Virus record (IMG/VR): IMGVR_UViG_3300043783_000028 | Coordinates: 1 to 21,242 of that record | Reading direction: 5' to 3' (one strand) | Origin: a virus | DNA: 21,242 bases | Part shown: piece after piece, positions 1,033 to 17,696 of the stretch | Position numbering within the stretch: position 1 is the stretch's first letter | Layout of the letters: the number at the start of each line of letters is the position of its first letter | Program-made: the position numbers and the translations under genes | The notes under the pieces: generated by a model | The model's input: only the letters and a program-made list of their open reading frames with translations | Database searches by the model: none | What the model was told of the DNA's origin: nothing

Positions 1033-1409
1033 TGGCCAACTGCTGCGTCGGCGTCTATCCATTCTGCATCAATCAGTACGCCACGTATCTGAAAGTTTTT
1101 ACTTGGTTGGCTCCCCCGCCGACACCGACCGCAGTAGGCGCAACGCCGCTACCGGTGAATCTCACAGGTTACACCGCGAATCTTCAGATTCGCCAGTTTC
1201 CCTTGTCGCCGACGATTCTCATCGACCTGACTCCTTACCTTGTTCTCGGTGGTGTGGCAGGCACGATAACGCTCACCATCCCTGCGAGCATTACTGCGGG
1301 GTTCACGTGGTGGCAAGCATTCTATGATTTGATCCTCACTGACCCCTCCGGCAACGTGACTCGACTCTTGGAGGGGACAGTCACCGTATCTCCTGGCGTG
1401 ACGCCATGA
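1032..1409 (+). CDS. Small phage virion-type protein, function unknown
   Basis: 125 residues, starting in a TAATG overlap with the methyltransferase stop and ending in an ATGA overlap with the large fibre gene. The middle carries a VNLTGYTANLQIRQF segment followed by alternating beta-type sequence and a C-terminal DPSGNVTRLLEGTVTVSPGV segment. This layout, 'L(T)GYTA..QIR' then a strand-rich half ending in an 'EG.V.V.PGVT' strand, resembles small beta-sandwich proteins encoded next to phage tail fibres and baseplates. The N-terminus has three Cys (C4, C5, C12) and no signal peptide or membrane segment. Tight coupling to the fibre gene suggests a fibre attachment or tail accessory role; this is inference, and I do not recognise a named family with confidence. 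Confidence 0.6.
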   Translation: MANCCVGVYPFCINQYATYLKVFTWLAPPPTPTAVGATPLPVNLTGYTANLQIRQFPLSPTILIDLTPYLVLGGVAGTITLTIPASITAGFTWWQAFYDLILTDPSGNVTRLLEGTVTVSPGVTP

Positions 1410-4400
1410 GCACACCGGGCGGACAGGTTTTCGTCTCCGGTACTCCGGGAACCATCGTCGTCGAGGAAACCGATACCAACACCGTCGAGATCATCACACC
1501 TGGGCCGCAGGGCATCCAGGGAGCGCCTGGGGCAGCAGGTGCGCCAGGAGCTCCGGGAGCACCCGGAGTTAACGGCGGCATTGATCTTGCGATCACCGGC
1601 AACACCTCTGGAACCACGGCCCTCATTTCCTCTGGCACCGCGATTCTCGCGGGTGGCCCGAACATCACTCTCTCTCAAGTCGGCCAGTCGATCACAATCA
1701 GCGGGGGCGCCGGTGGCGCGGGTGGCGGCATCGCGCTCTCCGCTGCGGGACAGTCAGTCAGTTCCGGAACCGTCACACTGTCGAACTCCAATAACGTCAG
1801 TTTCGGGATGGCGGCATCTGTCGTCACGGCGAGTGCATCCTTCGCGCAGTCGACGCAGACGCAGCCTGCTGGTGGCATCGCGGGTACGGCAACTTCTGTG
1901 ACCGGAAACGCGTCGCTCACGTTGAACTCCAATGGTCTTGCATTCAATGGCTCAGGTCTCGCTGGAACCTCGACTGGGGCTGTGAATATTTCCGTCACCC
2001 TCAATAGCAGCGGCATCTCGCTGAGTGCTCCGGCGACTGTTGCGCAGACCGGTATCAGCAGCATCATCGTATCGAATACGACCTACACGTCGGGCGCAGT
2101 CTCCTTCAGCAACGCGAATGGCATCACCTTCGGCTCAAGCGCGGGCCAAGCGATCACCGCCTCGTACAACTCCACGCAGTTCGCCGGCACGGGAACGAGC
2201 GTTACCGGCAACGCATCGATCACTTTAAATTCAAATGGTCTCGCGCTCAATGCGGCGAATCTTGCTGGCACTGGATTCGCGACGACCACCAGCGCGGGAT
2301 CGGTCATCGCCGGTACGCATAACACCACGGGATTAACTCTTGGCGTACCGCCATTTCTGACGACGCAGAGTGTGCAGACCCAAGCGAGCGGCGCCATTGC
2401 AGGGACTGGCACGTCGATCACCGGAAATGCGTCCATCACACTCAATAGCGTCGGTCTCGCGTTCAACGGGTCAGGTCTGGCTGGTACATCGACCGGCGCC
2501 GTGAATATCTCGGTGACACTCAACAGCAGCGGCATTTCCTTAAGCGCCCCCGCAGTGGGGGGTGCGCAGACCGGCATTTCAGGCATCCAAGTTTCGAACA
2601 CCACTTACACCAGCGGCACCGTCACCTTCCAAAATGCTAACGGCATTTCATTCGGCTCCAGCGGTGCGAACGGTGTCTCCGCCTCGTACACGGTGCCCAC
2701 GCAGACCAATCAGACCCTCTCGTGGGCAGCCACGTCCAACACTGCTGGCAATACGTCCGGCATGTCCGTGGATGCTCGAAGCCTCACGCTCGCAGGTTAC
2801 GGGATCGCAAGCGTCGGATACTCGACATCCGCCGGTGGCTCATCGATTGTGGTGTCCGCCACGCAATCGAATCAAGCCGTCAGCGCGCAGGGCGGCTCAT
2901 CGGCGTTCCAGACGCTGGTGTTCACGAACTCTAACAACGTATCCTTCAGCAATACGGGCGGCAGCGTGTGGGGCTCGTATGCGCTGAATGTATCTGCGAC
3001 CGGCGGTACCTCGAATGCCCTGTCGGGTCTGACATTCCAGAACAGCAACGGGGTCAGTTTTGGACTCTCCACCGGTGCTGGTGTGGGCTCACTGACGGCC
3101 TCCGTCGCCGCGCAATCGAATCAGCAGATGACGCTCTATGCGACATCCAATACCACGCAATCATCGACGGGAACGACCAACGCGAGCTCGGTGATATTCG
3201 CCGGCGCAGGAAACATCTCGGTCGGTATCACCAATGGCTCTATCGTGATTTCTGGCGCCGCGGCGGCCGCGCAGACGGGGATCAGCGGTATTCAGGTCAG
3301 CAATACCACGTATACCTCTGGGACCGTGACATTCCAGAACGCCAACGGAATATCGTTTGGCTCCAGCGGCGCCAATGGCATATCCGCCTCCTATACCGTT
3401 CCCGTACAGAGCAATCAGATGCTCTCCTTCGCAGCAACTTCGAACACCGCTGGCAACACCTCTGGCATGACGGTCGATGCGCGTTCGCTAACGCTCGCAG
3501 GATACGGCAACGCATCTGTGGGATTCTCAACCAGCGCAGGCGGCTCTTCAATCGTGGTATCGGTCACGACCGCCGCGCAGACCAATCAGACACTGGGACT
3601 CTATGCCTCATCGCAGACCACCGCGCAGTCATCCTCCTCGACCATCGATGCGCGCTCACTGACGATCGTGGGCCAAGGGAATATCTCTGTCGGTCTCTCG
3701 GCTGGCAGTTTTATCATCTCGCAGACTGGAGGCGGCGGAGGATGGGAGCTATCCGCTGGCGCAAGTTCACAATCGACCGGCACGATTGTATTCTCAAATT
3801 CCAATAATGTGAGTTTCGGCATGTCCACTGCGGCAGCTGCGGCGGCGACCGTGACGGCAACGGCGAGCTATCCGACCACACAGGCACTGTATTTTCTTGA
3901 TAATACGATTGGACAGTCCTCCACCAGCACTGCCGCAGATCAGTCGCTCTCCTATAGCCTTGGCGGCGCGCTCTCGGGCGGTTGGACCAACGGCTCGATT
4001 TTGCTATCCGCCCCTCAGACCTCAAGCCTGTCGGCGACCGGGCATATCTCCCTTAGCACCAACGGGTCAACTATCAGCATTGGGGATTTTGCAGCCGGTA
4101 GCGGCTTTACCAGCGGCTCAACGACTGGGAACTGGGCTGCGACCTTAAATAGCACTGGATTGAGCGAGGTAATACCTTTCCGCACGCGCGTCGTGTGGCC
4201 GCATTGTCAATTGACGGCCATTTCAGCGCCTGGAAATGCATCGGCATCCTTTCAATATGTTGCGGTGTATGCGCCTGCGACGGGAACACGCATCGATGCG
4301 CTGGCCTCGTGGTCCGCGATGGGTTCATCGGCGACAACCAACACCGCAGCGATCGCCATGTCGGCGTATGCCGTGATTTACACGCGCAATGTCTCAACGC

Positions 4401-4819
4401 TCTCGTCACTATCTTCTGGATCGACGCAGACCACCTACAGCTATGCGTCTAATACTGCAGGACATACCGAGTTTACGGCGGCCGCCATGCGTCCGATATC
4501 TGTCCCTGTGAATTTCAACATGCAAGCGGGCGAATATATCGTCGGTTTCAATTTAATCACCGCAACGAGCAGCATCGGAGCAAGCACCACGAGTTTCGGT
4601 CTCACGCTCTCCATGATGGGCGGAAATCAGAACCAGACGGCAGCAAATTATGCCGAAATCGGCTCACAAACAGCGTCGAGTTCTAACCTCTTCGCAGGCA
4701 TGGGCGTGTATGCCTCGGCCACTACCGGCATGCCAGCGGCCGCATCGCTATCCGCAATCGCCCAGACCGGTTCGTCGCTCTCTCAGGCCAATATTGCCCT
4801 GGTATTCAGAAACGCGTAG
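1406..4819 (+). CDS. Large repetitive tail fibre / adhesin with collagen-like segment
   Basis: 1137 residues, very rich in Ser, Thr, Gly, Asn and Ala and almost free of Lys. The N-terminal ~30 residues (possible virion anchor) are followed by a collagen-like Gly-X-Y run at about 33-58. Residues ~60-920 are degenerate beta-rich modules: an 'SNSN.VSFG' type also common in environmental phage fibres, a 'TGNASITLNSNGL' type, and four modules beginning Q-x-N-Q at residues 433, 570, 668 and 725. From about residue 925 the sequence is non-repetitive and strand-rich, a good candidate for a globular receptor-binding tip. Some repeats match perfectly in protein yet differ at most codons (see repeat entries). 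The start overlaps the upstream stop as ATGA. No enzyme motif is visible. A host-binding fibre is inferred from composition and location. Confidence 0.75.
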   Translation: MSTPGGQVFVSGTPGTIVVEETDTNTVEIITPGPQGIQGAPGAAGAPGAPGAPGVNGGIDLAITGNTSGTTALISSGTAILAGGPNITLSQVGQSITISGGAGGAGGGIALSAAGQSVSSGTVTLSNSNNVSFGMAASVVTASASFAQSTQTQPAGGIAGTATSVTGNASLTLNSNGLAFNGSGLAGTSTGAVNISVTLNSSGISLSAPATVAQTGISSIIVSNTTYTSGAVSFSNANGITFGSSAGQAITASYNSTQFAGTGTSVTGNASITLNSNGLALNAANLAGTGFATTTSAGSVIAGTHNTTGLTLGVPPFLTTQSVQTQASGAIAGTGTSITGNASITLNSVGLAFNGSGLAGTSTGAVNISVTLNSSGISLSAPAVGGAQTGISGIQVSNTTYTSGTVTFQNANGISFGSSGANGVSASYTVPTQTNQTLSWAATSNTAGNTSGMSVDARSLTLAGYGIASVGYSTSAGGSSIVVSATQSNQAVSAQGGSSAFQTLVFTNSNNVSFSNTGGSVWGSYALNVSATGGTSNALSGLTFQNSNGVSFGLSTGAGVGSLTASVAAQSNQQMTLYATSNTTQSSTGTTNASSVIFAGAGNISVGITNGSIVISGAAAAAQTGISGIQVSNTTYTSGTVTFQNANGISFGSSGANGISASYTVPVQSNQMLSFAATSNTAGNTSGMTVDARSLTLAGYGNASVGFSTSAGGSSIVVSVTTAAQTNQTLGLYASSQTTAQSSSSTIDARSLTIVGQGNISVGLSAGSFIISQTGGGGGWELSAGASSQSTGTIVFSNSNNVSFGMSTAAAAAATVTATASYPTTQALYFLDNTIGQSSTSTAADQSLSYSLGGALSGGWTNGSILLSAPQTSSLSATGHISLSTNGSTISIGDFAAGSGFTSGSTTGNWAATLNSTGLSEVIPFRTRVVWPHCQLTAISAPGNASASFQYVAVYAPATGTRIDALASWSAMGSSATTNTAAIAMSAYAVIYTRNVSTLSSLSSGSTQTTYSYASNTAGHTEFTAAAMRPISVPVNFNMQAGEYIVGFNLITATSSIGASTTSFGLTLSMMGGNQNQTAANYAEIGSQTASSSNLFAGMGVYASATTGMPAAASLSAIAQTGSSLSQANIALVFRNA
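1937..2035 (+). repeat. Fibre repeat A, copy 1 (33 codons)
   Basis: Encodes residues 178-210 of the large fibre (begins LAFNGSGLAGT, ends SLSAPA). All 33 residues are identical to copy 2 at 2456-2554, yet 22 of the 33 codons differ, all synonymously, including a CTG/TTA leucine switch. Confidence 0.9.
2456..2554 (+). repeat. Fibre repeat A, copy 2 (33 codons)
   Basis: Encodes residues 351-383. Protein-identical to copy 1 at 1937-2035 but synonymous at 22 of 33 codons. It is followed within 12 bases by repeat R copy 1, so A and R form a composite unit. After A copy 1 a more divergent R-like segment (from about 2042) occupies the matching place. Confidence 0.9.
2567..2674 (+). repeat. Fibre repeat R, copy 1 (36 codons)
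   Basis: Encodes residues 388-423 of the large fibre (begins QTGISGIQVSNTTYTSG). All 36 residues are identical to copy 2 at 3272-3379, but 27 of 36 codons differ synonymously. Similarity continues downstream into the first and third Q-x-N-Q modules with a few amino-acid changes. Confidence 0.9.
3272..3379 (+). repeat. Fibre repeat R, copy 2 (36 codons)
   Basis: Encodes residues 623-658 and is protein-identical to copy 1 at 2567-2674 despite synonymous differences at 27 of 36 codons. Three serines are encoded from the other serine codon family (TCN versus AGY), which needs more than one base change each. Confidence 0.9.
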
Positions 4820-4831
4820 AAGGTTATCCAC

Positions 4832-5551
4832 ATGAGCGTCACCCCAGGACAAATGCAGAGCGTGCTTGAGACTTCAGGCAGTTATCAATTCGCGCCGAGC
4901 ATGGGTGAGACCGTTTTATATTCCTACGGCCTGTGTGGAATCAGGCGCGCCGCACTCACCCAACAGCACTTTGAGGATGCACGGATTGCGACGAATTTGA
5001 TGATGGGTCGCTGGAGTTCTCAGGGCGTAAATCTTTGGCAGGTCGATAGTCTCTCAATCAACTTGGTTCAAGGAACGGCAACATATCAAGTTCCGTCGAA
5101 CACCATCGTAATCCTTGATGCGTACGTCACCATCAACAGTGGAGGCGCGGCGATTGATCGCATCATCACGCCGATCAGCAGATCCGAATACGCGAGTTAC
5201 TCGAACAAACAACGCCAAGGTTCGGTTACTGTGTTCTGGTTCGATAGATTGCTATCGCCGACGATTACATTGTGGTTAGTGCCGGACGGGACTCAATCAT
5301 CGCTGACTTATTACCGACTACGGCAGACGCAAGACTCCGTTCTTTCAAACGGCACCAATGTGGAAATTCCTTATTACTTTCTGGATGCGTTTGCTTTAGG
5401 ACTCGCGTATCGCCTCGCGTTATCGTGGGCGCCTGATCGTGCTATCACTCTGAAGCCATTGGCGGATGAAGCGTGGTCGATTGCTAGCACGCAAAACACA
5501 GAAACTGCGAATACATACATTTCTCCGCAAATTGGTCAATATTTCCGGTAA
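4832..5551 (+). CDS. P22 gp4-like tail accessory / head-tail joining protein
   Basis: 239 residues with no signal peptide or membrane segment. The pattern fits gp4-type tail accessory proteins of short-tailed phages: an N-terminal helical part with a 'GI.R..LT..H...AR...N.MM..WSSQGVNLWQV' run (about residues 36-70), then a 'QGTATYQVP' strand, a 'PISRSEYASYSNK' segment, a 'SPTITLWLVPDG' strand turn, and a C-terminal helical 'YFLDAFALGLAYRLALSWAP' segment. In P22, gp4 binds below the portal and closes the vertex after DNA packaging. The start at 4832 is supported by AGAAGG at 4818-4823 with an 8-base spacer. A second adaptor-like gene (8013-8798) and a nozzle gene follow nearby, consistent with a tail-assembly cluster. 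Family assignment is from pattern memory, without a profile search. Confidence 0.6.
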   Translation: MSVTPGQMQSVLETSGSYQFAPSMGETVLYSYGLCGIRRAALTQQHFEDARIATNLMMGRWSSQGVNLWQVDSLSINLVQGTATYQVPSNTIVILDAYVTINSGGAAIDRIITPISRSEYASYSNKQRQGSVTVFWFDRLLSPTITLWLVPDGTQSSLTYYRLRQTQDSVLSNGTNVEIPYYFLDAFALGLAYRLALSWAPDRAITLKPLADEAWSIASTQNTETANTYISPQIGQYFR

Positions 5552-5556
5552 CGCAC

Positions 5557-6405
5557 ATGGCATACGCATCAATAGCCGGTCGCGCGAGAACCTCAAGTAG
5601 GAATCCGCAAGCGCACGCGATTTGTCACCGATGCGGTGGCAGATTCAATCGCGTGGATCTACAGTTCCAATTTCAATGGCGCGGTGCGTCGCTGGTGAAT
5701 ACCTACATTCTCGTATGCAAACGTTGTCTTGATGTGCCGACCGAGCAACTTCGCGCGATCCGCCTACCGGCTGATCCGGTGCCAGTGTTCTATCCGAGCG
5801 TCGAGCCGTTCTGCCTAGACGAAACCAATTTCCTCGCCGTCACGGCACCACCTCTGATTGATCCGGTGACCGGCATTCAGATTCCGACGAATAACTTGCG
5901 CACGACGACGAATAATTTAAATCGCACCGTGGACCCATATGGTGCGCCTATCGGCCTCACTCAAAACGCCGTGATGCCCTACAACGGCGCGCTGCAGAAA
6001 GCCTTCGGCGTGAAACTGCAATTGCTCTCAGTCGTCGGTAACGGCACGACGATTGTCACGGTGACCTGTTCGGCGCCGCACGGGCTTGCCACCAATGGGC
6101 AGATCGCGGCGGCGGGACTTTCGTACCTCGATGCCAACGGTTTCTTCAGCGTAACGGTCCTCTCAGCCACGGCATTCACCTATATGACCTACGGCGCGAT
6201 CCCGACCGGCTCGCTTCTAGAATCCGGCAGCCTTATCATCACCGCGCTCGTTGGCCTGCCGTGCGACTACGTGCAGATTCCGCTCATCAACGGCGGACCA
6301 CTGTCGATTACGGTCCAGAGTTATCTGCTGGAACTGCAAAACGGTGTGGACCTGTTCTTACTGGAGGATGGCACCGACTTCATTGAACTGGAGGCTGGCC
6401 CGTGA
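5557..6405 (+). CDS. Zinc-ribbon-containing phage structural protein, unknown function
   Basis: 282 residues. The N-terminus has two CxxC pairs (C23/C26 and C54/C57) separated by 27 residues, a typical zinc-ribbon spacing, preceded by a basic Ser/Arg stretch. About residues 160-225 form a beta domain of the 'T.VTVTCSAPHGL.TNGQIAAAGLSYLDANGFFSVTVLSATAFTY' kind, found in many phage tail and other large beta-repeat proteins. The C-terminus has a short degenerate acidic repeat (LLELQNGVDLFLLEDGTDF). The mix of a metal ribbon with a tail-type beta domain suggests a virion component near the adaptor or fibre base. No strong ribosome-binding site precedes the ATG; the gene begins 5 bases after the previous stop and ends in a GTGA overlap with the next. 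No named family is recognised. Confidence 0.6.
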   Translation: MAYASIAGRARTSSRNPQAHAICHRCGGRFNRVDLQFQFQWRGASLVNTYILVCKRCLDVPTEQLRAIRLPADPVPVFYPSVEPFCLDETNFLAVTAPPLIDPVTGIQIPTNNLRTTTNNLNRTVDPYGAPIGLTQNAVMPYNGALQKAFGVKLQLLSVVGNGTTIVTVTCSAPHGLATNGQIAAAGLSYLDANGFFSVTVLSATAFTYMTYGAIPTGSLLESGSLIITALVGLPCDYVQIPLINGGPLSITVQSYLLELQNGVDLFLLEDGTDFIELEAGP

Positions 6406-8012
6406 GCAATACGACTATTCCGATGCTGCCAGCAGTGATCGGGCTGACCGGTACCGAACAGATTGAAGTGGTGCAGAATGGGGCGTCTGCGCGCGCTTCA
6501 TTGACGCAAGTGGCGACATTAGTCGAAACCGGCGCTCAAGGACCCCCAGGTCCTGCGGGCCCTGCTGGGCCTGCGGGCAACACATCGTTGGGTCAGACAT
6601 CGCTGTCCATTAGGGCGACATTCTCTGCGGCCGTGGCGAATGCCCCGATGATCGCGAATTATCAATTTGGCAGCGGGGTGGCACCGGGTTCTGGAATTAC
6701 TCCCATCACCAATCAGACGCAGCTCGCGGCGAACTTCAATGCGTTTGAAGATTTCACGGGCATGTCGACCATCAATAGCGAGATCCAACGCTATCAGAGT
6801 TTCAATTCCAGTAATCATCAGTTTTTGACGGATCGGTTGCAACTTAACGCATTGAACCCCAACAGCGATTGGAATTGCCAGATGACGCAAATCTCTGGCA
6901 CCGTCAATTTAAACAACACATCGACCGCGATCGCGAATTTGGGACTTGCAAATACCACAGGCCTGCAAGTCGGTCAGATGGTATGCGTCGCTCGAGCTGG
7001 CACTTATATCATCAGCGCGTTTGTGGCGAATACTTCGGTCACGTTGCAGTCCGTCGGAGGCTCTCCAACCACCTCGGTAAGCACGGGCGTGGCGTACTTC
7101 ATGCCGATCGTCAGTGCGGTGCTAAGCGCCGCTTATGTGCCAGGGAACACTTTTTTTACAGTCACGGCGCTTCCGGCCATCACTAACATCAATGGGATGC
7201 AGCTCGCGCACTACAATACCGGGTCCAACACCGTCTTGGAGCGGAACAACGATTATCGGGTAACGACCGCCTCCGGGACGACGGTAAATTTCAACACACA
7301 GTGGACCGTTGGCGCGCTTGGGATTGGCGAACTGATCTGGTTTCTGCCGGTCGTCACATCAGGGCAGATTTGGAGCCAGCTGCAAATCGACATCACGAAT
7401 CCGCAAACATTTTTTGCCTTGGAATGTCACGTCGATAACTATGGTGGCTCGCGCAGCTCCAACACGCTGAACGCCAATTCATTGGCGCAGGTCAACGCGC
7501 TCCCCGCCAACACGCCGTGGGGGGCATGGGCAACCTTCTGGTGTTACTCGGCTGATGATGGCAACTCAACGGGGGAGACCGGCAGCGCATCGGAGATCGA
7601 TGTATTGGAGCCGCAAATTAGTGTGAGCCAAGGGTGTCAGCAGGCGAACACGGGCAACAATGCAGGAACTGTTGTCATGATCAAGTCAGACAGTGGTTGG
7701 ATAAATTTTTACGAAAACTTCATTCACGGTAAAACCGACGGGAGCGATTTCACGGGCGATCATCTGTGGCAACTGATTTTCTGCAACGGCTACACGTATA
7801 AATTCTTCGATGGGATTCTCATCCAAGTGCAGACGTTCATCTGGAATAGCCAACATCCGCTGCAATTTGGCTTCGATCTCGCAGCAGGCGCGGTGCCGGC
7901 AGCCTACGGCGCTAATGTCTTGTTCCCCAATGCGACAACTAATTTCGCTGGCATTATCTCAGGCATTAAAGGGATCAAGGTCTGGTATCAGGCAGCGGTG
8001 GGCGGAGGGTAA
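6402..8012 (+). CDS. Tail protein with collagen-like segment and GH16-like (concanavalin A-type) domain
   Basis: 536 residues, GTG start in a GTGA overlap. The first ~40 residues ('LPAVIGLTGTEQIEVVQNGASARASL') match a common N-terminal virion-attachment segment of phage fibres. A collagen-like Gly-Pro-Pro/Ala run is at 44-59. The C-terminal part resembles glycoside hydrolase family 16: WGAWATFWCYS, then EIDVLE at 398-403, matching the ExDxxE catalytic bulge (E398 nucleophile, D400, E403 acid/base by analogy), then HLWQLIFCNGYTYKFF.DG, PLQFGFDLAAG and a last strand GIKGIKVWYQ. GH16 enzymes cleave beta-1,3/1,4 glucans and galactans, so this could be a tail depolymerase that digests host capsule or biofilm. 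Catalysis and substrate are inferred; a non-catalytic lectin of the same fold is possible. Confidence 0.65.
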   Translation: MSNTTIPMLPAVIGLTGTEQIEVVQNGASARASLTQVATLVETGAQGPPGPAGPAGPAGNTSLGQTSLSIRATFSAAVANAPMIANYQFGSGVAPGSGITPITNQTQLAANFNAFEDFTGMSTINSEIQRYQSFNSSNHQFLTDRLQLNALNPNSDWNCQMTQISGTVNLNNTSTAIANLGLANTTGLQVGQMVCVARAGTYIISAFVANTSVTLQSVGGSPTTSVSTGVAYFMPIVSAVLSAAYVPGNTFFTVTALPAITNINGMQLAHYNTGSNTVLERNNDYRVTTASGTTVNFNTQWTVGALGIGELIWFLPVVTSGQIWSQLQIDITNPQTFFALECHVDNYGGSRSSNTLNANSLAQVNALPANTPWGAWATFWCYSADDGNSTGETGSASEIDVLEPQISVSQGCQQANTGNNAGTVVMIKSDSGWINFYENFIHGKTDGSDFTGDHLWQLIFCNGYTYKFFDGILIQVQTFIWNSQHPLQFGFDLAAGAVPAAYGANVLFPNATTNFAGIISGIKGIKVWYQAAVGGG

Positions 8013-8798
8013 ATGACGGCTGCCACAAATCCGCTCTCCTATAACCTCTACATCCAGTACATCGCTGGCATGGCGGTCTATACGGCGTCGGAAAATCTTG
8101 GCGTGTGGGCGTTCAACGATGCGCCTCCGCAGCTGCAAGTGCCCTCTATGCTCAACTACGCCGAGCTTCGCATTCAACGCGACCTCGACATGCTCGCCTC
8201 GCAATCGACCAACAACTACACCTTGATCGCAGGCCAAGCCGTCTTCCAATTGCCGGTCGATGATTTCGTGACCGTGCAGACACTCGAAATTGTGACGCTT
8301 GCCAATGGCATCGTCATCAATGGCATTCCGTTGACCCCTGTGTCGAAAGAATTCATCCAAAACTGCTACCGAGGCGCTGCGAACGCAGGAACACCCTCCT
8401 ACTATGCGATGTATGGCGATAATTTCGGCGACACGGGCGACAGCTTCACCAATATTTTACTGGGGCCCCCGCCGAATTATCCCTACACGTTGAAAGTGAG
8501 CGGCACCTGCCGCATGCCATCGCTGTACAAGTACGCAACGGCCGGCCCCGCAGACAACACGTACACCTACATCAGCGCGTACTATCCGGATCTTCTCGTG
8601 ATGGCGAGCATGGTTTATATCAGTGCGTTTCAGAGAGGATTCAGTTCTACTAGCGATGACCCTCAAATGGCAATGACTTACGAAAAACAGTATCAAGCGC
8701 TTCGGATCGGAGCCATTCAAGAGGAAAATAGACGGAAACAAGAAGGATCTTCGTGGTCCTCATATTCGACGCCAGTATCAGCTACGCCGACGAGATAG
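8013..8798 (+). CDS. Head-tail adaptor-like protein (SU10 type)
   Basis: 261 residues. Features of the adaptor family are an N-terminal 'MLNYAELRIQRDLDMLAS' helix (about 46-63), a 'YTLIAGQAVFQLPVDDFVTVQTLEIV' strand segment, a 'LTPVSKEFIQNCYRG...PSYYAMYG' segment, a 'ILLGPPPNYPYTLKVSGTCRMPSL' strand pair and a C-terminal helical region with a charged tail (EKQYQALRIGAIQEENRRKQ). Such proteins sit under the portal and start the tail. The ATG directly follows the previous TAA, and GGAGGG at 8004-8009 gives a good ribosome-binding site. A nozzle-like gene follows after 3 bases, the expected order for tail-tube assembly. Family name is inferred from pattern, and a gp4-like role cannot be excluded. 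Confidence 0.6.
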   Translation: MTAATNPLSYNLYIQYIAGMAVYTASENLGVWAFNDAPPQLQVPSMLNYAELRIQRDLDMLASQSTNNYTLIAGQAVFQLPVDDFVTVQTLEIVTLANGIVINGIPLTPVSKEFIQNCYRGAANAGTPSYYAMYGDNFGDTGDSFTNILLGPPPNYPYTLKVSGTCRMPSLYKYATAGPADNTYTYISAYYPDLLVMASMVYISAFQRGFSSTSDDPQMAMTYEKQYQALRIGAIQEENRRKQEGSSWSSYSTPVSATPTR

Positions 8799-8801
8799 CC
8801 G

Positions 8802-10907
8802 ATGCCGCACGCCGCAATTAAGTTGGTCGGCGGAGTAAATCAGCAAGAGACTCCCGCGCTGAATGAAAACTCCGGCATTCAGCAGTCGAATCTCATTCGC
8901 TACATGTACGATCCGAACGGCATCAGTTTGGTGCAGAAAATTGGCGGCTGGAGTCTGTATCTCACCTTCCCCTTCATCGCCATCATTCGGGCGCTATGGG
9001 CGTGGGCGGATTTAAGTTTAAATAAAAATCTCGCGGTCGGCACGCAGACCAATCTATCGACCGGCTCTGCGCAACTCGCGGTAGTCACCAATGGCGTGCT
9101 GGAGGATATCTCCCCCTCCTCGATTACGGACAATATTACGCCCGTGGTCTCCTCGACGATCAACAGCGCATCGATCCAGATCACGGACACGACAATCACG
9201 GGGATCACGAATTACAACTCGGTGTACATCACGACGCAGATCGCCATCGGCGGCGTCGTGCTCTACGGTCTCTACGCCTGCGATCCTGATGGATTCCTAT
9301 CGACCAATTCCTACACCGTGTATGCGCGTGATTTACTCGGCAACAATCTACTCGCGACATCAAATTCATCAGCACCGGTGCTGCCGTCCTTTACCACGAC
9401 GGCAGCCTCGCTCACCGTCACGGTGAATCTGCCGCTGTACACCTATCACATCGGTGACACGTTCTCGGTGATCGTGCCAACGGTTGTCGGCGGCATCACG
9501 TTCTACGGCAATTACATCGTGCAGTCGCTAGTGGACGCGAATAATTTCATCATCATCGCCAATTCCGTTGCCACCGCCAACGCTGTCGGGACTTTAAACG
9601 GTGGCTTGGCACGTTTCATTTACAGCTTCGGCACGGGCGCCCTCCCCGGCGGCACAGGCTACGGCGCCGGGTATTACGGCCAGGGCGGCTACGGCACGGG
9701 GACTCCCGTAGTGCCCTCGACCGGCATGCCTATCGATGCGATCGACTGGACGTTGAGCAACTGGGGCGGCATCTTAATCGCGTGCGCCGATCGAGTACCG
9801 CCTGCGAATGGGACGCCGTTTCAGCCGATCTTTCAGTGGGATAATGAAACATCCTCCAAGGCCACGATTATCACCAATGCGCCCCCTGTCAACGATGGGA
9901 TATTCGTCGCGATGCCGCAGCGGCAGATCATCGCGTGGGGCTCGACGCAGACTGGAATTCAAGACCCGCTGCTGATTAATTGGTGCGATGTCGGCAACTA
10001 CAATCAGTGGATACCGCTAGTCACCAATCAAGCGGGCTCCTACAGAATTCCGCGCGGCTCAACGATTGTGGGCGCCATCCAAGCGCCACAACAGGCACTC
10101 ATCTGGACCGATGTCGCCATCTGGTCGATGCAGTACATCGGTCCCCCGTACGTCTACTCATTCAACGAAATTGGCACCGGTTGCGGCATGATCGCGCGCA
10201 AGGCGGCCGCGGCGGTCAACGGCATCGTGTATTGGATGGGCGTGCAGCAGTTCTACACGCTCTCAGGCAATGGCGTTGGGGCGCTTCCCTGCACGGTGTG
10301 GGACGTGGTATTTCAAAACCTCGATCAGAATAACTTGCAGAAAATTCGCGTCGCGGTGAATTCGCTCTTTGGCGAGATCCAGTGGTTTTACCCCTCTCTC
10401 TCGGGTGCTGGTGAAGTCGACTCATATGTAAAGTACAACACGTATTTGAATCTCTGGGATTACGGATCGCTCGGGCGTACCGCGTGGATCGATCAATCGA
10501 TTTTAGGTCCGCCCATCGGTGCCAATCCAAGCGATTTATCGCTCTACCAGCACGAGGTGTCGAATGACGCTGCGGGCACTGCGATGCTGCCGTTTTTTCA
10601 GACCGGGTATTACGCGATTGCCGAAGGGGATCAGAAGACTTTCATCGACTGGATCTGGCCCGACCTAAAGTGGGGCAAATATAATCAATCGCAAAACGCT
10701 ACGGTCGCGATAACATTTTTCGTGGTCGACTATCCAGGCGACACTCCTCAGCAGTTCGGCCCGTACTCCGTGACGCAAGCCACGGAGTATTTTTACACGC
10801 GGCTGCGTGGGCGATTGATCTCAGTGAAAGTATCCTCAAGTGATCTGGGATCATTTTGGCGTATCGGTAATATCCGATATCGCTATGCGCCCGACGGGAA
10901 AATATGA
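8802..10907 (+). CDS. Tail hub/nozzle, P22 gp10-like packaged-DNA stabilisation protein
   Basis: 701 residues. The start 'KLVGGVNQQETPALNENSGI' and 'ALWAWADLSLNKNLAVGT' are typical openings of the phage stabilisation/nozzle family. The middle contains two related beta inserts (about 115-180 and 205-280, each with a 'VGGITFYGNYIV.SL.D.N' type core), then a Gly/Tyr-rich linker (about 281-310) and 'IDAIDWTLSNWGGILIAC'. The C-terminal half has beta-propeller-like blades, including RGSTIVGAIQAPQQALIWTD and FNEIGTGCGMIARKA. In P22-type phages gp10 extends the tail tube under gp4 and helps hold the DNA. No catalytic motif is seen. It starts 3 bases after the adaptor stop and overlaps the next gene as ATGA. 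Confidence 0.65.
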   Translation: MPHAAIKLVGGVNQQETPALNENSGIQQSNLIRYMYDPNGISLVQKIGGWSLYLTFPFIAIIRALWAWADLSLNKNLAVGTQTNLSTGSAQLAVVTNGVLEDISPSSITDNITPVVSSTINSASIQITDTTITGITNYNSVYITTQIAIGGVVLYGLYACDPDGFLSTNSYTVYARDLLGNNLLATSNSSAPVLPSFTTTAASLTVTVNLPLYTYHIGDTFSVIVPTVVGGITFYGNYIVQSLVDANNFIIIANSVATANAVGTLNGGLARFIYSFGTGALPGGTGYGAGYYGQGGYGTGTPVVPSTGMPIDAIDWTLSNWGGILIACADRVPPANGTPFQPIFQWDNETSSKATIITNAPPVNDGIFVAMPQRQIIAWGSTQTGIQDPLLINWCDVGNYNQWIPLVTNQAGSYRIPRGSTIVGAIQAPQQALIWTDVAIWSMQYIGPPYVYSFNEIGTGCGMIARKAAAAVNGIVYWMGVQQFYTLSGNGVGALPCTVWDVVFQNLDQNNLQKIRVAVNSLFGEIQWFYPSLSGAGEVDSYVKYNTYLNLWDYGSLGRTAWIDQSILGPPIGANPSDLSLYQHEVSNDAAGTAMLPFFQTGYYAIAEGDQKTFIDWIWPDLKWGKYNQSQNATVAITFFVVDYPGDTPQQFGPYSVTQATEYFYTRLRGRLISVKVSSSDLGSFWRIGNIRYRYAPDGKI

Positions 10908-12078: not shown

Positions 12079-12672
12079 ATGCCACTACTGCCAGGGAAGA
12101 AAAATGTCGGCGCGAACATCAGCGAACTTCGCGAGCACGACCATCCGGAGAAGCAAGCGATCGCGATCGCGTTGGATGTCGCGCGCAAGCATCGCGAGGG
12201 CGGCGGGTTTAATTTGAAGCCGAAAAAACCGCACGTGCCACGCCCGCGCTTGCACACCGGACCGATTCATTCGAGCGTCGCGGGCAGAACCGATCACCTG
12301 CCGATTCATGTGCCGACCGGCAGCTACGTAATTCCTAGCGATATCGTGAGTGCGTCAGGCGAAGGAAATACGATAGCCGGCTTCAAACACGCACGCAGAG
12401 TTTTCGGCGGCAATCCCTATGGCGGCAGCGGCGCGACGCCTTACGGCCAAGGCGCGACACCGTACGGAATGGCGACAGGTGGGAGCGTTGATGATCCCGG
12501 CGTCCCGATCGTCGCAGCGGGTGGCGAGTACGTTGTGCATCCCGATCATGTGCGAGCCGTCGGCGGCGGTGATCTCGACACGGGGCACAAAGTGCTCGAT
12601 GAATTCGTGAAACGCACCAGGGCCGAATTGGTCAAGACGCTGAAGAAACTCCCCGGCCCGAGGACCGATTAA
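12079..12672 (+). CDS. Phage protein with conserved N-terminal 'PGK...KQAIAIAL' segment
   Basis: 197 residues, starting directly after the previous stop. The N-terminus (MPLLPGKKNVGANISELREH, then KQAIAIALDVARKH) resembles a short conserved helical segment I recognise in many phage and plasmid-type hypothetical proteins. The middle is basic and Pro/His-rich, with a Gly/Tyr-rich linker holding GATPYGQGATPYGMATGG (about 117-134). The C-terminal third contains 'GEYVVHPDHVRAVGGGDLDTGHKVLDEFVKRTRAELVKTLKKL', probably helical. No transmembrane segment. The same GG/PY-type linker motifs recur in the 1279-residue protein at 13857-17696, so the two may be packaged or assembled together; this is inference. 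The stop overlaps the next start as TAATG. Confidence 0.6.
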   Translation: MPLLPGKKNVGANISELREHDHPEKQAIAIALDVARKHREGGGFNLKPKKPHVPRPRLHTGPIHSSVAGRTDHLPIHVPTGSYVIPSDIVSASGEGNTIAGFKHARRVFGGNPYGGSGATPYGQGATPYGMATGGSVDDPGVPIVAAGGEYVVHPDHVRAVGGGDLDTGHKVLDEFVKRTRAELVKTLKKLPGPRTD

Positions 12673-13163
12673 TGGACGAAAATCTGCAGATCCGACTCGC
12701 CACCACCGATGATATGGATGAGGTGATGAAGCTGGCGTTCATGGCGTGCGAGGACAATGGCTTTTTAGACTACAGTCCAGAATTACTAGCGCGCGAAATA
12801 TGGCCGGCCTTGGCGCTTGATCACGGGCTGTTTCCTGTCATCGGACCTCCTGGAGGCGATATCCAAGGATTTGTCCTGCTGCGCATCGGCACCATGTTTT
12901 ATAGCCATCGGCAGTGCTTAGAAGAAAAATGTTTGTGGGTCCATCCTGATCATCGCGCCGCGCGCGGGGGTCGAGCTCGTAAGTTACTTGAATTCACTAA
13001 GAAAAGCGCCGATAGTCTCGGTTTGCCTCTGATTATTGGAATTATGACGACAAAAAGAGCAGCTGGTAAGACCGCTCTTTATCGCCGAACATTTGGCGAA
13101 CCGACAGGGGCGTTTTTTTTGTACGGTGCGGAATGCGGAAAAGCTCACATGGAACCAATGTGA
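12672..13163 (+). CDS. GNAT-family N-acetyltransferase
   Basis: 163 residues. The N-terminus 'LQIRLATTDDMDEVMKLAFMA' is the usual opening strand and helix of GNAT enzymes, and 'EKCLWVHPDHRAARGGRARKLLEF' (about 84-107) is the acetyl-CoA binding motif A (V.P..R...G.A..LL). The later 'GLPLIIGIMTTKRAAGKTALYRR' resembles motif B. GNAT enzymes move an acetyl group from acetyl-CoA to an amine. Target is unknown: a virion protein, a host protein or a small molecule are all possible. It lies in the structural operon rather than a metabolic cluster. The 3' end contains an 8-T run (13113-13120) after two weak hairpins. Its TGA overlaps the HNH start as TGATG. Confidence 0.7.
   Translation: MDENLQIRLATTDDMDEVMKLAFMACEDNGFLDYSPELLAREIWPALALDHGLFPVIGPPGGDIQGFVLLRIGTMFYSHRQCLEEKCLWVHPDHRAARGGRARKLLEFTKKSADSLGLPLIIGIMTTKRAAGKTALYRRTFGEPTGAFFLYGAECGKAHMEPM
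13054..13120 (+). other. Tandem hairpins and T8 run inside the GNAT coding end
   Basis: Two imperfectly spaced hairpins lie in the 3' part of the GNAT gene: arms AAAGAGC (13054-13060) and GCTCTTT (13074-13080), 7 bp with a 13-base loop; and TCGCCGA (13082-13088) with TTGGCGA (13093-13099), 7 bp including one G-U, with a 4-base loop. A run of 8 T follows at 13113-13120. The 13-base gap before the T run makes this a poor intrinsic terminator; an RNA attenuation element is only a possibility. Confidence 0.2.
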
Positions 13164-13810
13164 TGGCGCGAAAAATCGTATTATCTAAAAATTATTTGAA
13201 CTCGATGCGAGGCAAAAACGCGGCGCGCTTAAATTCCCCAGAGCACCGCGCAAAACTTGTAGAAACATGGCGAACGTCTCCTCCAGAACGGCGCGGCCGT
13301 TGGCTCGAAATCCTAGCCGATCACAACGCCAAGAAACGCGAAGAAGCTACTCAACGAACGACCAAAATTTGTACTGCGTGCAAAACTTCTAAGGCACTTG
13401 AGTGCTTTCCAAAAAACAGAACGTCTGCGGATGGCCATAACACAATGTGTTTCGAATGCCGTAAAGCATATGATCGACACCGGTACGAAACTAGAGGCCC
13501 GGAAATGAGAGAACGTGTGAAACGTTACCGCAGAGAGAATTTGCCAAAAGTTAACGCGGCAGATGCAGCGAAAATAAAAAAGCGGAAGCACGCAACACCA
13601 AAATGGCTTTCATGGTTTCACCTTGCGCAAATAGAAGAATTTTACGAACTTGCGGCCGCTAGGACGATGCAGACCGGTGTTGAATATCACGTGGATCACA
13701 TCGTACCTATAAAAGGGAAAAAGGTGAGTGGTTTGAATGTGCCATGGAATTTGCAGTTGCTGACAGCGAAAGAAAATATGCGCAAGCATGCTAGTTTTAT
13801 AGAGGAGTAA
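13163..13810 (+). CDS. HNH endonuclease with zinc-finger (possible homing endonuclease)
   Basis: 215 residues from the ATG at 13163, chosen because it overlaps the GNAT stop as TGATG; a farther upstream start at 13133 exists but would overlap GNAT by 31 bases. Domains in order: a basic N-terminal helical region; a CxxC...CxxC zinc-binding pair (C70/C73 and C96/C99); a basic coiled region; and a C-terminal HNH core with YHVDHIVPIKGK (175-186; H176, D178, H179), then VPWNLQLL (N196) and KENMRK (N205). HNH enzymes cut DNA with a metal ion. The gene is visibly richer in A/T and Lys codons than its neighbours, suggesting it arrived separately. It lies between GNAT and a large candidate ejection gene whose start looks damaged (see finding), consistent with a homing insertion. 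Confidence 0.75.
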   Translation: MARKIVLSKNYLNSMRGKNAARLNSPEHRAKLVETWRTSPPERRGRWLEILADHNAKKREEATQRTTKICTACKTSKALECFPKNRTSADGHNTMCFECRKAYDRHRYETRGPEMRERVKRYRRENLPKVNAADAAKIKKRKHATPKWLSWFHLAQIEEFYELAAARTMQTGVEYHVDHIVPIKGKKVSGLNVPWNLQLLTAKENMRKHASFIEE

Positions 13811-13856: not shown

Positions 13857-16800
13857 GTGCCCGCCAGTGTACTCGCGGCCTACCAGAGCGTTAATCAAAA
13901 AGCTGATACGACCGCCAACACGCCTTTTCAAACTTACGGTGGTGAGTTCGTCGCGCCGATAAATCAGCAACAATCCGCTGGCGTAGCTGGAACGAATGCT
14001 GCGGCTAATGAAGCCCAACCATATTTCGGCGCGGCCACTGGCGATATTCAAAGTACGCAAGCGAATACGCAACCGATCAACGATGCAGCCACTGGACTAG
14101 CAGCGGCGAGTGCGGGACCAGTTAACGCGCAACAAATAGGATCACAACAGATTGATCAATTCATGAATCCGTATCTGAATACGGTTCTCGGATCAACTGC
14201 AGGACTTCTCAATCAGAATAATCAACAGCAGCAGGCGGGGCAACTTGGCACGGCGATAGAATCAGGTGCATTCGGGGGAGACCGCACGGGCCTCGCTGCT
14301 GCGAACTTAGAGCAGCAACAGAATCTTGCAAACGCGAATATTTATTCAGGTATTGCGAGCGGCGCGTTCAACACTGCACTCGGTGCCGCGCAACAACAAC
14401 AGGGTGTCAACCTAGGAGCGGGTCAAGCAAATCGTGCCGCATTAGCATCCGCTGGTCAGGAGCTCGCTGGCATTGGTCAGACAGCATACGGCGAAGGTGC
14501 CAACACTGCGACTACGCTCGCAGGTCTAGGGGCTGGTGCGCAGACTGCTGGCCTACAGGGCGCGCAGGCACAGATTGGCGCGGGCACATTAGAGCAGCAG
14601 ACGGCCCAGGCGCAAGATACTGCGCAGTACAATCAATTTCTTCAACAGCAGAGTTATCCATTTCAAGTGGATTCTTGGCTGGCCTCGATTGCCGAAGGGA
14701 CCGGGGCTCTCTCGGGATCTACCACTACGACGTCCCAGCCCGGAGGCTTCTTCTCCGACGTTCGTTTGAAACACGATATCAAACAGATTGGCAAAACTTT
14801 CGATGGTCAAGAAATTTATTCGTACAAAATGCATGGCGACGATCGCACGCATATTGGATTGATTGCACAGAAAGTTGAGAAAAAACATCCAGAGGCTGTC
14901 GGTCTCGCTGGCGGCTACAAGATTGTCGACTACGGTGCGGCAACTGAGAAAGCGGCGAACCGTGGACACTTTTATAGCGGCGGTGTTGTTCCCATCCGTC
15001 GCAAAGCGTACGCCGATGGCGGCATGCCATACGATTATTTATCCGCGCAGCAACAGATGTATGCGCCGATGGAGAGTCGCCAGAATCGCAACATCCCGAA
15101 TCAAGCGCCTGCTGCGCATCAACTAGCGGTCGCGTCTGGTTCTCCAACTCCGGTGCCTACGGGTGCTTCGAATTTGAATCAGTCGTTAGGATTAATTAAT
15201 AACGGCCGTACTCTGTACAACAGATTCAGTTCTCCCTCATCGACACCCAGCACGCCTACGCCTGCCGGCGCCTGGAGTGATCCTGCGACCTCTGGCGGCT
15301 TCGATGGGTCGGCTGGCTACAGCGGCGGACTTGCGCCTGCTGCTGCGCCTGCGGCTGAAACCGCTGCCCCTGCTGCTGCAGAAGCTGCCGCACCGGCTGC
15401 TGCTGAGGCCGCTGTGCCGGTCGCGGCGGATGCGGCGGTAGGTGCCGGGGCTGAGACTGCTGCGGCACTGGCAGCCGAATACGCGGCGGCAGATGTGGGT
15501 GCAGCGGCGCTCATTGCCGCCAAGCGAGGCGGCCGCATGAAGCGTCCGGGGCTTGACGCGGGGGGTATGCCCTACCAGGGCGATGGCGCGGGTACCCCGT
15601 ATCAATCCGCCGATGGCACCATGGATATCCCGAACGATCCGAACACCGCCAAACTGCAGACCGCTGGGCCCTTAAAGAAGCAGCCGACGGGACTGCAGAC
15701 CGCCCTTAGCATGGGCGATCCGAATAGCTTAGGGACCACAGTGGGGAGCATGTTCAGCAACACCGCGCTCTCACGTGGCGGCCTAGCGAGACGACGGCGC
15801 GGCTATGACGATGGCGGCGATGTGTCCGACTCAGACATGCCGGAATTGACCGTTGAGGGTCAACGACCAGATCCAGTCACCTATGCGGGCGGCGTCAATC
15901 CTGAGCCAATCAAGGTCGACTCGGGCGCCGAACCCCCCATGCCGGGATTGAAAGGCGGCTTGCCACCCGACTCGCCACCCGCGTCCACGGATCACTGGTG
16001 GAAGCACGCTGAGAACGTCGTACCGATCCTCCAGGGACTCGCTGCCATGGGGACGGCACCTACTAAGCACTTAGGCGTGGCGTTGGCTGCAGGGCTCGGT
16101 GCGGGCGCGCAGTCGTGGCTCCCGGCGCAACAGCAGGAGGCGGATATACAACGCACGCAGTTGCAGAATCAAATGGCACGGATGCAGGTGGGTGCAATGC
16201 GCGGGGCCATGACGCCACCGTCTGGCGGGGGGTCCCAAGCAACGATACCTGGCGCACCGCCGAGCGATGCAAGCGCGCTGCCAGGGTATTTCGCAAAGAA
16301 ATACAACCCGACCATGACCCCAGCGGAATTATCTCGGTATAACAGTGCACAGGTAGCAGGCGGGTATACGAAAAATCCTGGGCTTGCACAAAGCGTCATG
16401 ACTGATTATCAGCAGCGCGTCGCGCGGCAGCAGCAGGATGCCATACAGCAGCACGATCAGGCATACAGCGTCGCTACTGCTCAGGACGGTAATTTTGCGG
16501 CCCTCGCGAAATCAGACCCAGTGGCCGCAGCTGCGATATCGAAATCATTAGGATTCGATGCCGCGAGCAACCAGATACCGCCGAGTGCGGATGAGGCTGC
16601 TAAGCAGTATGCAACGGCTAAGGTCACGGCGATTCATCCTTGGACAGGTTCTGATTATAAGGACGAGGGAGGCTCGTTCCGCGACACGCGCACCGGGAAG
16701 CCCGCGATCGGGGCGACAGCGCAAACGCTGACCGCTGAGCAGACGCAGCAGAATTGGCAAAGAGCGGTCGCTGAGGCAAACGAACCCGTTACGACGGGTG

Positions 16801-17696
16801 CTGGGCTCCCGACACTCCGATACAAGTCATTGGGATACCCATCAGACACGGCCTATGCCGCGCATAAGACTGGCACTCCGGCCCCTCAGAGCGCAGCCAC
16901 TCCGCCACAGGCAGCGCCGCCAGTAAAGCCGCCCGCAACATCGACGCCAACGAAGACGGTGGCGCATGCTCCAGCCACCCCTAGCAGTCCGCAGACGCAG
17001 ATGCTGAATGGCGTTGATCTGAATGCGATTCCAAAATTGCCACCGCTCCCAGCCGTCGTCGATCAGCCAACAAAGGCTCGCGCAGATGAGCGCGCGACGT
17101 CTGATGTGAAAGTGCAAAACGATACGATGGGTTCTTTGTCGCAGCAGGCAGCGGCCGCCGCAAGAAACACGGCTGTCTATTCTCAACTGGAAAAAACGTT
17201 AGCGAACGCAAGTCCGCGCGAGTTCGGTCCAAGCTCATCTACATATAAAGCGGTAATGGGACTCAAAACATACCTTAGCGGGCTACCTCCAGATGGGCTC
17301 GTGAATCAAGCGGAAGCCGATAAATATCTCGCACAGCTGGGCGTTGGTGGCTCAAAGCAATTGCTCGGAGCTGACCAGCAGTTGAGACAGCAAGAAATGC
17401 TACTGCTGATGTCGCGCGCAAATCCCAACATAGATCAACCGTTGCAGGTAATCAAAAACTTGGCAGCCTTTGGCCGCGTTGGGAATGAGTATGATTTTAA
17501 AGCGGCGAACACCGGCGTGGCAGCGATTCGCAACGGCGCCGATCCGTTCGCTGTGCCTGGCGCCATTGAGAGCCAAATGCCGCGGGCGGCGTATGTCACC
17601 GGGAAACTCAACACCCCGCAGTCGCACCTTGATTACCTGAAGGCGCATCCCGAAACGGCATCGCAGTTCAAAGCCAAACATGGATATCTACCGTAA
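13857..17696 (+). CDS. Large Ala/Gln-rich phage protein with internal S74 chaperone domain; candidate ejection protein
   Basis: 1279 residues from GTG 13857; an ATC at 13818 may be the real start. Residues 1-290 are helical and Gln/Ala-rich, with LGTAIESGAFGGDRTGLAAANL near 127-148. An S74 intramolecular chaperone-like domain follows (about 299-365): FFSDVRLKHDIKQIG with S300, D301, R303 and K305 at the Ser/Lys self-cleavage positions, then HIGLIAQKVEKKHPEAVGL. Three basic 'R..Y..DGG' patches are at 381-392, 557-573 and 645-654, an Ala-rich tract is at 493-555, and the C-terminal ~250 residues are helical. S74 domains normally end fibres; here 900 residues follow. Its size, composition and position next to the 600-residue candidate ejection protein suggest a DNA-ejection or virion-internal role; this is inference. 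The stop overlaps the next start as TAATG. Confidence 0.65.
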   Translation: MPASVLAAYQSVNQKADTTANTPFQTYGGEFVAPINQQQSAGVAGTNAAANEAQPYFGAATGDIQSTQANTQPINDAATGLAAASAGPVNAQQIGSQQIDQFMNPYLNTVLGSTAGLLNQNNQQQQAGQLGTAIESGAFGGDRTGLAAANLEQQQNLANANIYSGIASGAFNTALGAAQQQQGVNLGAGQANRAALASAGQELAGIGQTAYGEGANTATTLAGLGAGAQTAGLQGAQAQIGAGTLEQQTAQAQDTAQYNQFLQQQSYPFQVDSWLASIAEGTGALSGSTTTTSQPGGFFSDVRLKHDIKQIGKTFDGQEIYSYKMHGDDRTHIGLIAQKVEKKHPEAVGLAGGYKIVDYGAATEKAANRGHFYSGGVVPIRRKAYADGGMPYDYLSAQQQMYAPMESRQNRNIPNQAPAAHQLAVASGSPTPVPTGASNLNQSLGLINNGRTLYNRFSSPSSTPSTPTPAGAWSDPATSGGFDGSAGYSGGLAPAAAPAAETAAPAAAEAAAPAAAEAAVPVAADAAVGAGAETAAALAAEYAAADVGAAALIAAKRGGRMKRPGLDAGGMPYQGDGAGTPYQSADGTMDIPNDPNTAKLQTAGPLKKQPTGLQTALSMGDPNSLGTTVGSMFSNTALSRGGLARRRRGYDDGGDVSDSDMPELTVEGQRPDPVTYAGGVNPEPIKVDSGAEPPMPGLKGGLPPDSPPASTDHWWKHAENVVPILQGLAAMGTAPTKHLGVALAAGLGAGAQSWLPAQQQEADIQRTQLQNQMARMQVGAMRGAMTPPSGGGSQATIPGAPPSDASALPGYFAKKYNPTMTPAELSRYNSAQVAGGYTKNPGLAQSVMTDYQQRVARQQQDAIQQHDQAYSVATAQDGNFAALAKSDPVAAAAISKSLGFDAASNQIPPSADEAAKQYATAKVTAIHPWTGSDYKDEGGSFRDTRTGKPAIGATAQTLTAEQTQQNWQRAVAEANEPVTTGAGLPTLRYKSLGYPSDTAYAAHKTGTPAPQSAATPPQAAPPVKPPATSTPTKTVAHAPATPSSPQTQMLNGVDLNAIPKLPPLPAVVDQPTKARADERATSDVKVQNDTMGSLSQQAAAAARNTAVYSQLEKTLANASPREFGPSSSTYKAVMGLKTYLSGLPPDGLVNQAEADKYLAQLGVGGSKQLLGADQQLRQQEMLLLMSRANPNIDQPLQVIKNLAAFGRVGNEYDFKAANTGVAAIRNGADPFAVPGAIESQMPRAAYVTGKLNTPQSHLDYLKAHPETASQFKAKHGYLP

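Follow-up and report, generated by a model that had tools for sequence, protein, structure and literature searches.

A gene in a 21,242-nucleotide viral sequence (IMG/VR record IMGVR_UViG_3300043783_000028, positions 1 to 21,242; this whole stretch is referred to here as the window) encodes a protein whose identity as a member of glycoside hydrolase family 16 (GH16) is supported by sequence and profile comparisons. We consider that the gene probably specifies a tail fiber- or spike-type protein of a podovirus-like phage, in which an N-terminal anchor and a collagen-like stalk carry a divergent, insert-split GH16 domain that would cut a host polysaccharide (Table 1).

Table 1. Positions of the gene, its parts, and neighboring virion genes in the window
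Feature	Position	Strand	Basis or remark
SU10-adaptor-like protein A	4832–5551	+	Pfam PF24175, E = 7.7e-9; conserved order
GH16-bearing ORF	6402–8012	+	GTG start; 536 aa
N-terminal anchor, residues 1–42	6402–6527	+	48–58% identity to relatives
Collagen-like linker, six G-X-Y triplets, residues 44–61	6531–6584	+	Sequence
GH16 domain, first part, residues 84–151	6651–6854	+	Homology to L220, L092, and L102; alignment with GH16
Inserted region, residues 152–318	6855–7355	+	Two segments of ~80 aa; site common to four members
GH16 domain, second part, with active-site strand, residues 319–536	7356–8009	+	hhalign against GH16 profile
WGAWATFW, residues 373–380	7518–7541	+	Counterpart of GH16 W-P-A-F-W (alignment)
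EIDVLE, residues 398–403	7593–7610	+	Predicted nucleophile E398, D400, predicted acid/base E403
SU10-adaptor-like protein B	8013–8798	+	Pfam PF24175, E = 6.4e-17; 61–68% identity in relatives
Stabilization-type virion protein	8802–10907	+	phrog_3287, E = 2e-59; relatives annotated 'phage stabilization protein'

Gene neighborhood and N-terminal anchor

The two SU10-adaptor-family genes flank a 282-aa protein gene and the gene of the anchored GH16 protein, and this pair is conserved in relatives. The order adaptor A, 282-aa protein, anchored protein, adaptor B, and stabilization protein was kept in four of them (L003, L007, L008, and L009). The GTG start of the anchored protein's ORF overlaps the stop of the preceding gene by 4 bases.

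The anchor matched the first ~40 residues of the proteins encoded at the same position in L003, L006, L007, L008, and L009, and the C-termini of these proteins differ. Relatives of the anchor are encoded at 226 or more candidate loci in viral contigs. Among the matches listed, 102 anchor ORFs had only noise-level similarity to the window protein beyond the anchor and collagen; of the 54 long anchor proteins among these matches, 43 matched Pfam Collagen and none matched Pfam GH16. Host assignment from the anchor matches (a Paceibacterota, a Methylocystaceae, and Betaproteobacteria MAGs) was rejected as unreliable, since these are binned metagenome contigs.

Two marks of a tail fiber or spike were thus found, namely, a position inside a tail/connector gene cluster and a shared N-terminal anchor with differing C-terminal payloads. 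The first-pass annotation had called the protein a tail component, which the shared anchor and the place beside SU10-type adaptor genes support and do not prove. The 42-residue anchor would attach the protein to the head-tail connector or short tail, and the short collagen-like stalk that follows may mediate trimerization.

Several other genes of the window were noted. A 1,137-aa repetitive fiber-like protein (1406–4819) has a weak collagen match, and the gene directly before it matches L-shaped tail fiber assembly families. A GNAT-type acetyltransferase gene (12672–13163) lies amid the structural genes and has an annotated counterpart at that position in MW202675, and an Endonuclease VII/HNH-like gene (13133–13810) is likewise located within the structural cluster. 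A 1,279-aa ejection/internal virion protein (13857–17696) contains a Peptidase_S74 (endosialidase chaperone) domain at residues ~300 to 348; the domain is internal and not at a fiber C-terminus, as it also is in the equivalents from L003, L004, L007, L008, and MW202675.

Relationship to GH16

Searches of the window protein against Pfam, NCBIfam, PHROGs, and PDB sequences gave no GH16 match; its divergence and its interruption by an insert let the module escape the first three collections. The Pfam profile PF00722 found nothing on the window record and was positive in six control genomes. No relative of the window protein was detected by tblastn among 50,697 phage records or by scanning viral and genome contigs for peptide patterns. 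Relatives were located with degenerate DNA patterns. One pattern (W-A-x-F-W ... E-I-D-x-x-E) retrieved six loci from viral contigs, including L092, and a second (the W-P version) retrieved more than 119 stretches, including L220.

The homology of the L092 protein to the window protein (blastp E = 4e-13) covers the sequence before and after a long central region. When that region was cut out, the Smith-Waterman score was 239, compared with a mean of 35.6 for shuffled sequences (Z = 35). L102 and L103, which are identical over the compared stretch, are both close to L092. L220 had 30% identity to the window protein over 477 aa (blastp E = 2e-30). L220 alone matched PF00722 (27.4 bits; cut-off, 22; E = 2.7e-6), and its PDB matches were all named glucanase, laminarinase, or GH16, the best being Pyrococcus LamA (2vy0; E = 2.7e-5). 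The core of L092 matched Zobellia laminarinase 4bq1 (E = 1.7e-5), with an alignment that begins at NNELQHY, passes GEIDILE, and reaches the C-terminal strands; tblastn of this core in phage records gave chance-level matches only. In a tree of 99 GH16 rows, the window protein, L092, L102, and L220 formed a clade within GH16 with 100/100 support, and the window protein was placed on a long branch.

The GH16 domain has three supports in this family: anchor and collagen in the window protein, a short N-terminus in L220, and a beta-propeller-like fusion in L092. In L220, the GH16 gene precedes a Phage_capsid_3 gene of the same orientation. In the product of the L092 gene (L092:4342–7353), GH16 carries a ~346-aa insert and is fused at its C-terminal side to a beta-propeller-like part (a 'choice-of-anchor B' match); the gene adjoins a 1,059-aa ORF resembling a pectate-lyase-type tailspike.

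Direct profile comparisons used a GH16 reference profile made from bacterial and viral GH16 sequences. A profile of three family cores matched it with 98.2% probability (E = 4.5e-14). For the window protein alone (residues 319 to 536), the hhalign score was 40.2 (range, 40.2 to 45.8), compared with a mean of 13.5 and a maximum of 22.3 for 200 shuffles and a maximum of 24.3 for 369 unrelated phage C-termini, i.e., ~10 standard deviations over the controls. The N-terminal part of the protein alone had a noise-level score, and hmmsearch of the window protein alone gave an E value of 7e-8 in a 7-sequence set. Masking EIDVLE reduced the hhalign score to 24.6, masking the W block reduced it to 20.7, and masking both reduced it to 13.4. 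Because the two single-mask values fall near the control maximum of 24.3, the direct evidence leans on EIDVLE and the W block; the GH16 support obtained via L220 and L092 is independent of those two blocks. A two-row profile had no match in the PDB. The family profile found none among 385 genomes belonging to the same class as G050, a search that had no positive control and is not evidence of absence. AlphaFold models from single-sequence and three-row inputs had mean pLDDT values of 33.1 and 30.3, too low to give a confident fold for comparison with the beta-jelly roll (concanavalin A type) of GH16.

Two candidate explanations of the match were rejected. A Laminin-G-type domain was discarded as the Laminin_G_3 control profile scored 10.8, which is noise. 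A chance motif was discarded on the basis of the shuffle, decoy, and related-ORF controls: a bare ExDxxE occurred in 0.65% of shuffles of the window protein, while the combination of W..FW with a subsequent E[ILVM]DxxE was absent from all 20,000 shuffles and from all 2,049 other ORFs of related phage contigs.

The family reading in the first-pass annotation therefore holds, through full-length homologues that match GH16 and through a direct hhalign match that beats the controls. The Pfam check that it had proposed gave a divided answer, negative for the window protein and above the PF00722 cut-off for its homologue L220. The motifs that it had listed were read in the ORF translation as described: EIDVLE, of the ExDxxE type with E398, D400, and E403, is preceded by WGAWATFW and followed in order by DG (residues 470 to 471), PLQFGFDLAAG (486 to 496), and a terminal strand (KVWY, 526 to 529), in a protein that does bear collagen triplets. 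These motifs lie in the region 7500 to 8012, to which the domain had been assigned, but the domain is not confined there; it begins at about residue 84 and is interrupted by the insert. Purifying the C-terminal part alone, as had been suggested, would be unlikely to succeed, since the GH16 fold lies partly ahead of the insert.

INSEIQRY (residues 124 to 131), in the first part of the domain, corresponds to the laminarinase NNELQHY. The 167-aa interruption comes after the strand LQLNAL and before TSGQIWS. Inserts of 150 aa in L220 and ~346 aa in L092 and L102 occupy the identical site, and the same columns contain 13 to 52 residues in 22 ordinary GH16 rows. The repeats inside the L092 insert are related to one another (Z up to 7.1), and the last of them is also related to the second segment of the window protein's insert (Z = 6.9). 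The two-segment insert appears to sit in one surface loop, where it may extend the cleft or bind the polysaccharide.

Active site and alternative readings

A GH16 active site, taken as ExDxxE or ExDxE with both glutamates and the aspartate, is present as E398-I-D400-V-L-E403, and its three acids align with the GH16 nucleophile, Asp, and acid/base. The catalytic pair of ZgLamA is Glu-269 and Glu-274 (PMC4606783). The E, I, D, and E of EIDVLE and the W, F, and W of WGAWATFW were invariant in the four members (the window protein, L092, L102, and L220). The strand adjoining ExDxxE contains a His in L092 (LHW) and L220 (NIHGG); in the window protein the aligned stretch reads VVMIKS, without His. 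A His next to ExDxxE is listed for GH16_1, 3, 9, 11, 12, 16, and 17 (PMC6827312). The window protein thus lacks the conserved His that marks GH16_3-type laminarinases, and no GH16 subfamily was assigned because of this absence. The Arg of the YGxxExR strand is also missing, as it is in L092.

Activity of the domain is likely but, given the missing His and strand Arg, not certain. If active, the domain would cleave a beta-linked polysaccharide of the host surface by a retaining, endo-type mechanism, with E398 as the nucleophile and E403 as the acid/base. The predicted substrate of this putative depolymerase would be a capsule or exopolysaccharide, the cutting of which would let the virion reach the cell surface.

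The same residues bear on a second reading, in which the protein is a lectin-like receptor-binding tail protein with a GH16 fold that has lost catalysis and binds polysaccharide in the old cleft without cutting it. We regard this as unlikely. The loss of both the His beside the motif and the strand Arg in a protein on a long tree branch, with the His kept in relatives, is what loss of catalysis might leave behind, and inactive GH16 proteins with intact glutamates exist: Rv0315 retains both, and no activity was detectable with the glucans assayed (PMC4606783). However, the three catalytic acids and the W/F/W residues were kept at only ~30% identity to relatives, which suggests selection for catalysis, and only some of the ExDxxE subfamilies are reported to have the His (PMC6827312).

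It is less probable still, and we give it little credence, that the protein is a GH16 enzyme that works off the virion in soluble form, either set free when the host lyses or directed at glucan of the host or the environment. A tail-gene neighborhood is not obvious for some phage GH16 genes (e.g., in Rhizobium phage X2_24), and the GH16-motif ORFs in viral contigs are mostly short; the N-terminal anchor and collagen stalk common to many proteins and the conserved place between adaptor genes nevertheless argue against it. That the domain is some other beta-rich tail module, with EIDVLE and the tryptophans matching by chance, is very improbable in view of the Pfam score and uniformly glucanase, laminarinase, or GH16 PDB matches of L220 and the control-exceeding profile score, even though the window protein itself has no direct Pfam or PDB match and the AlphaFold models were uninformative.

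We therefore favor the tail fiber- or spike-type protein with a polysaccharide-cutting GH16 domain. Phage depolymerases are mostly recognized by their beta-helix. A broader idea, which we offer tentatively and hold to be somewhat less likely than its opposite, is that the four members belong to a phage-specific GH16 subfamily in which a repeat-domain insert covers the cleft and adapts it to a single host exopolysaccharide. Carried on unrelated virion anchors, such enzymes might form a depolymerase class beside the beta-helix tailspikes, one that present family models do not detect. An active phage GH16 tail enzyme, if real, would be informative for host-range prediction and useful as a tool enzyme, and the anchor family, with its at least 226 loci, allows payloads to be compared at a fixed attachment point.

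Comparison with known systems

The window protein and its relatives share with the GH16 laminarinases that have the beta-bulge motif ExDxxE (ZgLamA, 4bq1/4bow; Pyrococcus LamA, 2vy0) the elements N-x-E-[LI]-Q-x-Y, W-x-x-F-W, E-I-D-x-x-E, DG, and [LI]A-x-G strands in the same order. They differ from these enzymes in their low identity (~13 to 30%) and in the 150- to 346-aa insert in one loop; the window protein differs further in its phage anchor and in lacking the neighboring His and the strand Arg.

Phage GH16 is already known, and what is new, as far as the open-access literature goes (reports elsewhere may exist), is a divergent, insertion-split version on this anchor. The GH16 subfamily survey of Viborg et al. 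(2019) named just one characterized viral member, from a chlorella virus (PMC6827312). GH16 is phage encoded in Sinorhizobium/Rhizobium phages as well (phiM9 'laminarinase'; phiM12 and phiN3 'beta-glucanase'), although tblastn with the window protein did not match them. In Curtobacterium phages, annotated minor tail proteins (e.g., Yotsuba gp9) similarly contain a GH16-like segment, but the tail protein and the phage are different, with no homology outside GH16 as far as tested. In its overall plan, an N-terminal anchor with a swappable sugar-cutting payload, the window protein resembles the pectate-lyase-type beta-helix tailspike depolymerases of Klebsiella and Acinetobacter phages (PMC11652154), from which it is distinguished by a payload that is GH16.
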